Assembly (NCBI RefSeq): GCF_003583365.1
Contig: NZ_QXED01000020.1
Location: 1 to 51,763, forward strand
DNA: 51,763 nt
DNA from: Fibrisoma montanum
GTDB taxonomy: Bacteria > Bacteroidota > Bacteroidia > Cytophagales > Spirosomataceae
Direction of reading: 5' to 3'
Shown: positions 5,501-51,763 of the stretch, in pieces
How the letters are laid out: every line of letters starts with the position of its first letter
How positions within the stretch are numbered: position 1 is the first letter of the stretch
The notes under the pieces: generated by a model
Told to the model about the DNA's origin: nothing
The model's input: the letters and a program-made list of their open reading frames with translations, nothing else
Database searches by the model: none
Program-made: the position numbers and the translations under genes

Positions 5501-6752
5501 GATTGAAGGAAATACTGAGGTAATCCAACGCTGTCAAGGCCGATAGGCTTACGGGTATACTTCCCGTGATGACGTTGTTATACAGGTTAAGATAGTTTAG
5601 GCTGGTCAGCCCGCTTAAACTCAACGGTAAGCTTCCCGTTAAGTTTCGGCCCTGCAGATCGATATAGGTCACGCGGCCGTTTTGGCATTGAACACCTGAC
5701 CAGGGGCTGCCGCCGTTGCCCGTGCAAGGGTCACAGCCACTGAGCCAGCCGGTGTTGTTGGTCCAGTTGGGACCGTTGGTGGCGTTATAGAGGTCGACCA
5801 AAGGCTGATAGTCGGGGCTACTGATTACGGTTAGACTCGTAGTGGCCGTGGCCGTCTGCCCGTTACTGCTCACCGTCAGCGTGAAGATCTGGGGGCCGTT
5901 GTCGCTGGCCGTTAGGCTCTGGCTGAAGGCGCTCGTGTTGACCGTGCCCGACAGCGGACTGCTGCCGTTGGTCAGCGTGAAGCTGTAGGGCGTCACTACG
6001 TTGCTTATCGTAGCGGTAAAGCTCACCGAACTGCCCGCACAAACCGGGTTGGGGCTGGCCGCAAAGCCGGTGATGGCAGGCCCGGCGCAGTTGGCCTCGA
6101 CCTCGGCCAGCGTCGCGCAGCCCGGCGCATTATTGCTGATATCTTTTCTGTTGGCTGGTAAGGTAGCCAGCAGCCGACAGATGGACTCGGTAGCGCAGAG
6201 ACTCAGTTGCGGGTTATCATAAATACTTAGCTTGCGCCCCACGTTGGTGAGTGACTGGACTCCGCTCAGGCTGATCAGGGCACCATTCAAGCTGATTTCA
6301 AGATCTTCCCCCACCTGTCGAAGTGCGCTCAGGCCGCTTACACTCGTTAACGAAGGATTATTGAGGATTATCAGATCATCCCCGATGCTGGCAAGTGACT
6401 CGAGTCCGCTTAGATTAGGCAGGGCAGTGTTTGAAGCAATTACGAGGCTACTCCCTACCTGACGGAGTCCACTCAGCCCACTCACGTTCGTCAGCAAGGG
6501 GTTACTGTCAATACTCAGAAAGCCCCCCACGCTGGTGAGGGATGCCAACGGACTCAGGTCTGTAATGTCAGCCCCAGAAATGGTTAAGTTACCGGGTACG
6601 ACGAAGCAGCCCGGCGGGAAGGCGTCGACCTGGGCCGGAGTGCTTAGCGTGACATCACCCGTGGGGCACTGGGCCTGTAGATGGGTCTGGCTGCTGAGCC
6701 CAATCAGGCCGAGCCACCATAAAAGACAACGAAGGAGGTAGTGATTTTTCAT
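2535..6752 (-). CDS. Large secreted LRR / beta-helix / Ig-like protein with T9SS sorting domain
   Basis: This is a surface or released protein of about 1,405 residues, probably for adhesion or glycan binding. The likely start is the ATG at 6752, because it gives a clean signal peptide (MKNHYLLRCLLWWLGLIGLS, cleaved near AQA-Q); the frame continues upstream but only through a duplicated promoter segment. Domains in rough order: receptor-L-like repeats (35-215, repeated L-x-x-L-x-x-V-G), an Ig-like domain, plant-type LRRs (315-490, L-T-G-S-I-P motifs), another Ig-like domain, a polymorphic-outer-membrane-type beta-helix (565-940, repeated N-C-x-F-x-x-N-x-A and G-G-A-x-Y-N), three or four Ig/PKD-like domains, and a C-terminal domain ending in L-L-R-V-S and Q-Q-V-V-K-L-L-K-H. 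The last matches a type A T9SS sorting signal, so export across the outer membrane by the gliding/PorSS machinery is expected. The ligand is unknown. Confidence 0.85.
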   Translation of the reverse strand: MKNHYLLRCLLWWLGLIGLSSQTHLQAQCPTGDVTLSTPAQVDAFPPGCFVVPGNLTISGADITDLSPLASLTSVGGFLSIDSNPLLTNVSGLSGLRQVGSSLVIASNTALPNLSGLESLASIGDDLIILNNPSLTSVSGLSALRQVGEDLEISLNGALISLSGVQSLTNVGRKLSIYDNPQLSLCATESICRLLATLPANRKDISNNAPGCATLAEVEANCAGPAITGFAASPNPVCAGSSVSFTATISNVVTPYSFTLTNGSSPLSGTVNTSAFSQSLTASDNGPQIFTLTVSSNGQTATATTSLTVISSPDYQPLVDLYNATNGPNWTNNTGWLSGCDPCTGNGGSPWSGVQCQNGRVTYIDLQGRNLTGSLPLSLSGLTSLNYLNLYNNVITGSIPVSLSALTALDYLSISFNQLTGSIPAGLSNLTRLTFLDFQQNQLSGCFPASLSALCSQSVSVNFSGNPGLPGGGNFATFCQGRPVASVSPTAQTVCVGSPVSLSASGGAYYSWSGPNNFTAAVANPGFVASSTAVGGVYSVTVSNGSCDSPVVSASITIQTSGGPSRLYVKANAAGANTGLNWDDAFPDLQSALNYSCQAGLTEIWVATGVYRPTTTTDRRISFLMKNGVAIYGGFLGTETELSQRPSITSTTPSSSTLTSNNSGNTYHIVYSLPGTNDTAILDGFMLTGGDTNNGIGEDGFGAAMFNDGSDAGNFCNPIIRNCAFVANNAVFGGAVYNDGARGSSSPTFINCLFANNRSYEGGAIYNQGIEGVVSPRFTNCAFINNTAFFGGQGGVMFNNDGDGLTTSTFTNCSFAGNRATETGGAVYELGGNRASFTTFVNCVLFNNGGGQTFAIRIAGGSLPRLSYSLIDATATNYTDNGNNLTTTVSPFVSATDLTLTPCSPAINAGLSSATGLNGITTDLASNPRFFSNAGAPAGIVDMGAYEYQANPTLITVSSPAVTTAIQGQPFSQSFTASGGVGPYSYSLASGSLPPSLSLSSAGVLSGTPTEAASYSVLVTASDANGCSGTGTTYELTVRPSSLFTVVQAPANQTACVGSRVTFSVRVAPDQGVTYAWFKNSADPRQPIQATTPDYTVEITDGGKAGRYIVRITGADGTTVEQRELVLTVNQRPVSPPPTSTRRQLCPDATPVNLGQYVSRTNNSYLVRYYQSTGQLLASSSVVLDQPGTYAFSATQVDPATGCESVPTSFTLTVNPATQLVSNPAGQTVCSGSTVTLTVQATGSNLRYEWFRGSVANQNKLFENASRQTGTTTASLTLVRVSQSEPYYVRVTGDCGVVVSGAIAVTVQACGARQGVSEAVEPGLQVRVLGNPTAGEWMEVALSGVGSESVRLVVSDERGHVLSEQGLAAGQGDGRHRVALGPNGGVYLLRVSTPSRQQVVKLLKH

Positions 6753-50717: not shown

Positions 50718-51636
50718 CTTTTTATTCTTATTCTTCTGGAAGTGGTACTCTGACCCTTCGCCAAAATGAAGGAACGCGGGTACGTGTGGGAGTCTTAATC
50801 CTTATTCTTCTGGAAGTGGTACTCTGACCCCTAACGAACAGATGGAACAGACACCCGAACAGCAGTAGTCTTAATCCTTATTCTTCTGGAAGTGGTACTC
50901 TGACTCAGCGTGGGCGAAGGCGAAGGCCGTAAGCAGTGGACCGTGTCTTAATCCTTATTCTTCTGGAAGTGGTACTCTGACCTATAAGGATCGCTATGGA
51001 ACCCGACTTCTGGAGCTACTTGTCTTAATCCTTATTCTTCTGGAAGTGGTACTCTGACACCTTCGTCTGGAACGGCACCAACTACGAACTAATGTCTTAA
51101 TCCTTATTCTTCTGGAAGTGGTACTCTGACACAACGTAACCGTCACGGACGGTACTGCAACGGGAATTTCAGGTCTTAATCCTTATTCTTCTGGAAGTGG
51201 TACTCTGACCGGGCTGAATACGCCGAAGTTGTCGACATAAAGGATGCGTCTTAATCCTTATTCTTCTGGAAGTGGTACTCTGACGATAAGCAGACCGGCT
51301 TATGTGAGTTGCACGAAAAAGTCTTAATCCTTATTCTTCTGGAAGTGGTACTCTGACTATGTCCCTTAGCGCGCTACTGGGGGAAGAAAACATGTCTTAA
51401 TCCTTATTCTTCTGGAAGTGATACTCTGACGAGGGCGGCATTGTCGCAGTGGTTGAGTTCTGCCTGTCTTAATCCTTATTCTTCTGGAAGTGGTACTCTG
51501 ACTGATTTAAATGTGGCTAAAATTAAATATGAAGTCTTAATCCTTATTCTTCTGGAAGTGGTACTCTGACACTATGAAACCCGACCGCGAATGCACCCGC
51601 TGCGGAGTCTTAATCCTTATTCTTCTGGAAGTGGTA
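50718..51636 (-). CRISPR. CRISPR array: 13 repeats of 37 bp (last cut at 30), 12 spacers, no cas genes in window
   Basis: Repeats start GTCTTAATCC and end CTCTGAC on the plus strand. They begin at 50718, 50792, 50868, 50945, 51022, 51094, 51173, 51248, 51321, 51394, 51466, 51534 and 51607. Spacers are 31-42 bases. The first repeat has four changes at its left end, as expected for the leader-distal end. The tenth has one G-to-A change. The last stops at 51636, where the IS begins. Read on the minus strand, the repeat ends ATTAAGAC, like the 8-nt 5' handle (ATTGAAAC) of type I and III crRNAs. Transcription right to left is therefore likely, with the leader beyond the IS. The type cannot be fixed without cas genes; a type I or III repeat is favoured. 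Confidence 0.95.
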
Positions 51637-51763
51637 TGTCTTAGCCCCCTATTAGTTGGACAGATTTTCTAAAACGGTTGAGTCACACACCACTGCTTTC
51701 TCCCACTTTTCTTGCGGGGTAATAAAGTCTAGGGATCGGTGACGCCTTGCATAGTTGTAATGG
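51637..51763 (-). mobile_element. Right-hand end of an IS3-like insertion sequence (copy 2, inverted)
   Basis: The IS terminus TGTCTTAGCCCCC begins directly after base 30 of the last CRISPR repeat. Bases 51637-51762 are the reverse complement of 1-126. The element points inward from outside the window, so its transposase is read right to left. The target duplication cannot be seen. Confidence 0.9.
51652..51763 (-). CDS. IS3-family-like transposase, C-terminal end (partial, copy 2)
   Basis: The minus-strand frame reads the same 36 C-terminal residues as copy 1 (H-Y-N-Y-A-R-R-H-R-S-L-D-F) and stops at the TAA complementary to 51652-51654. The start and catalytic core are outside the window. 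Confidence 0.8.
   Translation of the reverse strand, partial: HYNYARRHRSLDFITPQEKWEKAVVCDSTVLENLSN

Follow-up and report, generated by a model that had tools for sequence, protein, structure and literature searches.

Do the spacers of a CRISPR array record the places where messages begin? The question is raised by an array at 50718-51636 of contig C12 of Fibrisoma montanum (Spirosomataceae). The entire contig, 51,763 nucleotides of a 7.79 Mb, 39-contig genome that is 99.98% complete, was analyzed and is referred to as the window. In this array a 37-nt repeat occurs 13 times, interspersed with 12 spacers of 31-42 nt. An earlier note on this DNA had described six of these spacers as resembling the starts of messages and had proposed RNA-targeting immunity of a type III-like kind or spacer capture from RNA by an RT-Cas1. 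The array is very probably the leader-distal part of a type III-A array of the ordinary kind, which shows the strand bias known for type III and in which the start-codon pattern arose by chance. The features of the locus are collected in Table 1.

Table 1. Features of the window array and the adjoining insertion sequence (positions in the window).
Feature	Position	Strand	Remarks
Degenerate repeat that closes the array at its leader-distal end	50718..50754	-	Starts with CTTTTTATTCTTATTC instead of GTCTTAATCCTTATTC; remainder matches the consensus
Twelve spacers and 11 complete internal repeats	50755..51606	-	crRNAs predicted on the minus strand; orientation from the two conserved leaders on C20
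Last repeat, 30 of 37 nt left, truncated by the insertion sequence	51607..51636	-	
Insertion sequence: terminal inverted repeat; the opposite strand holds the 3' end of a transposase-like frame	51637..51763	+	Contig ends within the element; based on ten exact element ends in the genome, their flanks and frames

The crRNA-sense form of the repeat is GTCAGAGTACCACTTCCAGAAGAATAAGGATTAAGAC, from which the copy at 51394 differs by one change. The spacer letters had been read correctly in the earlier note. Twelve spacers are present, and ATG lies at positions 12, 14, 15, 2, 9, and 4 of spacers 1, 2, 4, 9, 11, and 12, respectively. Spacer 4 has AAGGA five bases upstream of its ATG, spacer 11 has TAA immediately 5' of it, and spacer 12 is translated as MKPDRECTRCG. 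Over all spacers, ATG occurs 10 times on the plus strand and 3 times on the other. In four of the six spacers (1, 2, 4, and 12) the frame upstream of the ATG likewise has no stop, and spacer 9 has no codon upstream of its ATG, so that a start is indistinguishable there from an internal methionine. A different frame is open over the full length of spacer 11 (DLNVAKIKYE) and of spacer 4 (YKDRYGTRLLELL).

Elsewhere in the genome, the repeat (up to three mismatches to its 30-nt core) is found only on a second contig, C20, which carries two arrays. Array B has 6 spacers. Array C has 23 spacers, 18 of them distinct, and its last repeat, near the contig end, is truncated by the opposite end of the same insertion sequence. 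The leaders of arrays B and C are identical at 84 of 93 nt and both lie at the GTCAGAG side of the repeat, which fixes the direction of the window array. As the earlier note had suggested, the window array is predicted to be transcribed from right to left, and its crRNAs would be the reverse complement of the plus strand. Array C (L022:6040-7770) also contains two duplicated blocks of spacers, one of three spacers in tandem and one of two repeated after a single other spacer. Slippage or unequal crossing-over could have produced them, and Cas1 is not detectable in the genome. A lone repeat with two mismatches to the window repeat is present in a relative, G280 (L054:1501-1537), and no array was detected within 20 kb around it (L088).

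The insertion sequence, presumably IS3-like, is present in multiple copies, with ten exact ends in the assembly, five of each type. Only two of the ten are flanked by the repeat, the right type on C12 and the left type on C20. Array C therefore most likely continues, at its leader-distal end, into the window array, and the element interrupts it. The flanks on the two contigs share 19 nt of repeat. This overlap exceeds the typical target duplication of a simple insertion and is too long for the join to be one clean event. It would result from two insertions and a later recombination in which the units between them were lost. Both ends of the window consist of the same right-hand end of the element (101-126 and 51637-51662).

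The cas locus on C20 is type III-A (Csm), judged by its gene content. Upstream of array B are cas6, cas10/csm1, csm2, csm3, csm4, csm5, a DUF3368 gene, a Csx1/Csm6-like gene, and a RecD-like helicase gene, and a WYL regulator gene sits between arrays B and C. The Cas10/Csm1 signature is present. The first 561 residues (L043:13619-15301), with an HD-like N-terminus, match Cas10 (3e-79) and Cas10a/Csm1 (9.7e-64), and the frame continues into L021. Family matches are also found for Csm2 (3e-21), Csm3 (6e-62), Csm4 (4e-42, above the NCBIfam cut-off), Csm5 (1e-27), and Cas6 (8e-51). The Csx1/Csm6-like product is a CARF-HEPN protein and putative cOA-responsive ribonuclease (Csx1 3e-21, Csx1/Csm6 8e-21) that has no Pfam match at 0.001. 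The window array shares an identical repeat with this locus, and the repeat is on no third contig. The type III system proposed in the earlier note is thus borne out by a III-A gene set, Cas10 included, beside the same repeat.

The locus resembles other type III-A (Csm) systems in this set of cas6, cas10/csm1, csm2-csm5, and a Csx1/Csm6-like protein, in its 37-nt repeats with the end ATTAAGAC, in its spacers of 31-42 nt, and in crRNAs antisense to a message-like strand. Unlike them, it belongs to a genome without a Cas1 match, its array is truncated by an insertion sequence, and genes for a DUF3368 protein, a RecD-like helicase, and a WYL regulator adjoin. The helicase (PADLOC PDC-M16A, L021:7836-9248) and the DUF3368 protein (PDC-S70, L021:5434-5913), which we take to be PIN-like, are encoded between the III-A genes and array B. 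A helicase ~29% identical to it is found near the arrays of L077 and L079. Between the arrays, L022:2017-5917 has three reading frames, two of which (424 and 287 aa) have no Pfam match. The third contains DUF7017 and a TOTE-type S1/CSD-like domain. The three frames are a possible ancillary defence module.

Comparison arrays with related repeats were extracted from relatives. They were sorted into type III and type I-B by repeat sequence, and cas type was established by tblastn for only part of them. The csm4 gene was found in 20 of 390 genomes of the order, and all 19 besides the genome studied here were sampled. Duplicate spacers were merged (23 to 18 in array C). For L077, L079, L081, and L091, the repeat consensus used to extract the spacers was derived from the loci. 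L085 and L113 were classed as III-A because csm4 is found elsewhere in the same genome. The orientation of L100 (8 spacers) comes from a weak score, 5 vs 4. The counts leave out L109 (9 spacers, orientation unclear), the 30-nt-repeat arrays of another class in L112 (53 spacers) and L074 (5 spacers), one stretch with too short a consensus in each of L074, L100, and L101, and L060-L073 apart from a stretch of G111 that is counted as L113.

The strand orientation of the window spacers fits the known type III coding-strand bias. In 10 of the 12, the purine-rich strand is the crRNA complement, i.e., the plus strand. The same lean is observed outside the window. The crRNA complement is the purine-rich strand in 152 spacers vs 70 (8 ties, binomial P 4e-8) of the III-A set with arrays B and C (n=230), in 284 vs 122 of all other type III spacers (n=429, 24 of them from this genome), and in 183 vs 74 of a pool with type III-like repeats (277 distinct spacers). 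Two of the 11 relatives' arrays in the III-A set, of 5 and 8 spacers, lean the opposite way. The type I-B-like repeats of relatives (n=870) give 425 vs 399 with 46 ties.

Purine counts by themselves cannot separate transcript targeting from invader base composition, in which purine-rich message or replication strands alone would produce the lean. To tell the two apart, a three-position reading-frame score was used, in which the shuffling of each spacer corrects for its composition, and which is expressed as the excess for the crRNA complement. The excess is 1.34+-0.48 in the window, 1.16+-0.24 in all 36 spacers of the genome, 0.36+-0.13 in 206 III-A spacers of relatives, and 0.42+-0.10 in the 429 other type III spacers. 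Held-out gene fragments used as controls score 0.49+-0.06 in the sense direction and 0.02+-0.06 on a random strand. The I-B spacers have an excess of 0.10+-0.07. Their summed score is above all 100 shuffles, though it amounts to little per spacer. A signal that survives correction for composition, is about as large as that of true sense gene fragments, and is small in the I-B arrays of relatives makes base composition as the sole cause very improbable.

The crRNA complement thus carries both the purine and the frame excess, at a size like that of sense gene fragments, and most type III spacers sampled here are probably antisense to coding sequence. This conclusion is drawn from composition and frame, with no convincing protospacer. 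It agrees with the earlier note, in which the crRNAs were expected to be antisense to messages. According to Vink et al. 2021 (PMC8482600), type III spacers favour the coding strand, and in Thermus the strand bias is described as arising by selection for working guides (Artamonova et al. 2020, PMC7515739). The type III spacers here appear, as in these accounts, to be placed so that crRNA can pair with mRNA. The targets were mapped in the published work and are inferred here from composition and frame. A coding-strand preference is likewise described for I-B in PMC8482600, whereas the I-B arrays sampled here have at most a weak trend.

The start-codon pattern was examined as the number of early open ATGs, defined as an ATG within the first 15 bases of a spacer with the frame open to the spacer's end. 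The cut-off of 15 was set by the data, since the most distal of the six window ATGs lies there. The ATG count of the window by itself is at chance level, with 10 observed where mononucleotide shuffles average 6.6 (P 0.11) and dinucleotide shuffles 8.0 (P 0.20). The imbalance of 10 vs 3 between strands has P 0.036 in mononucleotide shuffles, 0.35 in dinucleotide shuffles, and 0.02 against gene fragments. The early open ATGs, 6 of 12, do exceed their expectation, which is 1.75 in mononucleotide shuffles (P 0.0037), 2.06 in dinucleotide shuffles (P 0.0060), and 1.74 in random sense fragments of 23 own reading frames (P 0.003). A scan over cut-offs 1-40 and both strands leaves P 0.023, uncorrected for the choice of motif and array. 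By the permutation test proposed in the earlier note, the placement of the ATGs is nominally above chance and their number is not.

These values favour the view that the window spacers were preferentially acquired from, or selected at, the translation starts of transcribed genes. So do the 36 spacers of the genome taken together, where 12 early open ATGs are found vs 5.2-6.0 expected (P 0.004-0.007), the six of the window included. A precedent exists as well. In the review PMC9048733, the type III-A spacers of Streptococcus thermophilus are described as enriched on the coding strand in a zone ~10-50 bp downstream of the start codon (Zhang et al. 2021), so that a start bias, even if true, would not be without parallel. 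The likeness lies in the coding strand and the nearness to gene starts; the difference from that account is that the enrichment is absent, by the ATG test, from the wider III-A sample here. One cause could be, for instance, that type III-A adaptation favours as its substrate the coding strand displaced near a start.

The pattern is not replicated outside the window. Arrays B and C have 6 early open ATGs in 24 spacers vs 3.5-3.9 expected (P 0.13-0.17) and 7 on the other strand, and their ATG count is 15 vs 18 on the other strand. The stronger nominal excess of open ATGs in these arrays is also on the other strand (smallest P 0.013, scan-corrected 0.095). The III-A relatives have 32 in 206 spacers vs 28.3+-4.6 (P 0.24). 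Adding arrays B and C, still without the window, gives 38 in 230 vs 31.8+-5.3 (P 0.14), with 33 on the other strand and ATG totals of 135 vs 141. All type III spacers outside the window give 68 in 429 vs 59.4+-6.9 (P 0.14), with ATG totals of 269 vs 228, and their ATGs are distributed over the spacer quarters as 65, 64, 76, and 64. In the 277-spacer pool the ATG totals of the strands are 176 vs 128, and the shuffle mean of 189 is higher than observed.

The point estimates for early open ATGs in the pools are 14-20% over the shuffle mean, and the independent sets all lean slightly upward. By a rough estimate, a general excess of up to perhaps a third is compatible with these data and a threefold one, as in the window, is excluded. 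The test reaches only spacers that contain ATG, and the published enrichment downstream of the start would often omit it. A start bias is not supported outside the window, and inside it a stop in the same frame precedes the ATG in just one of the six spacers (spacer 11). Preferential sampling of translation starts is accordingly unlikely. The start-codon pattern is real in the letters, yet chance in a small sample is its most likely origin. Arrays of the same repeat, which the earlier note held would speak against its idea if they lacked ATG or strand bias, have no ATG bias and retain the strand bias.

This genome seems no longer to possess adaptation genes. Neither Cas1 (PF01867) nor reverse transcriptase RVT_1 (PF00078) has a match in it, and the positive controls matched 9 and 3 of 14 genomes, respectively. 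The Cas1 of a III-A relative (L089) likewise matches nothing in the genome, in a weak search that had no positive control. This Cas1 of 321 aa matches only the Cas1 family in Pfam, i.e., it is a plain Cas1. The arrays are probably frozen except for internal duplications. Given the cut by the insertion sequence and the apparent loss of adaptation genes, expression and growth of the window array may both have ceased.

Spacer uptake from RNA by an RT-Cas1 fusion, the other route considered in the earlier note, is compatible with the antisense orientation of the crRNAs. It is contradicted by the missing Cas1 and RVT_1 matches in so complete a genome, unless such a gene falls into a gap of the assembly or disappeared once the array had been made, and the plain Cas1 of the relative does not favour it either. 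In addition, RT-active systems are described in PMC9048733 as having no strand bias at genes other than rRNA genes. Such capture is hardly credible here. It is also distinctly improbable that a lost adaptation module once drew spacers from the displaced coding strand at starts and that the window array, as the oldest part, keeps this record best. A CRISPR-associated primase-polymerase is annotated next to cas1-cas2 (L075:16370-17449) on a Runella plasmid with type III-B genes.

The search of the spacers against phage and plasmid sequences that the earlier note had called for yielded no convincing protospacer, either for the window or for array C. The window array has no match in phages, and in plasmids it matches two Runella CRISPR arrays and has eight weak matches (E 0.8-10). 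One of its plasmid matches, in Microvirga, is outside an annotated gene and is regarded as chance. Array C has a single weak phage match (E 6) and, in plasmids, matches the same two Runella records and one of Vogesella. The Vogesella match, by spacer C6 (28/30 nt, E 0.1), is the best-scoring non-repeat plasmid match of array C and is taken as chance. It lies ~1.6 kb inside a gene, with a sense opposite to the antisense reading.

Viral contigs and family genomes likewise gave no convincing protospacer for the window spacers. Wobble-degenerate patterns of seven of the 12 (spacers 12, 5, 1, 4, 9, 2, and 8) were not found in viral contigs, nor was that of spacer 12 in genome contigs. The frames of these patterns were chosen by the analyst, and divergent targets escape such patterns. 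Among 222 family genomes, 220 have some match to the window array at E <=10, with at most two candidates scored per genome, and the strong matches among those listed are CRISPR repeats. Spacer 5 matches 21/22 nt of L071, in a frame that by eye resembles a host protease with a PDZ domain, and AT-rich spacer 11 matches 20/21 nt in L072 and 19/20 nt in L068. All three are taken as chance. A Runella type III array matches 29 phage records, and the 20 that were listed all match at one place, L075:11507-11542 (query 6414-6449). This segment is ~90% matched to phage DNA, with a tRNA annotation in 8 of the 20, and is perhaps a tRNA-derived spacer. The remaining nine records include Streptococcus.

As an ordinary type III-A array, the window array would have been transcribed from right to left, and Cas6 would have cleaved the precursor. 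With a crRNA as guide, the Csm complex would find the complementary transcript of a phage or plasmid, after which Cas10 and the Csx1/Csm6-like ribonuclease would act, to judge by the functions predicted from the gene set. Published work suggests that only crRNAs antisense to coding sequence would work and that selection would keep them. The coding-like sequence would then hold ATGs both as methionine codons and by chance, and that they crowd at the left ends of the spacers in this one array is most likely an accident of the small sample. The array would later have been interrupted by the insertion sequence, with the adaptation genes apparently lost.

The locus is a III-A system with no detectable Cas1 and an array apparently split by an insertion sequence. 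A striking start-codon pattern in a small sample gives way to a clearer result on strand. In type III arrays of this order, a strand signature is readable from the spacers alone, without protospacers, and it is barely seen in the type I-B arrays that were sampled from the same family. The signature could help to separate RNA-targeting from DNA-targeting arrays and to give their orientation where the phages of the host are unknown.
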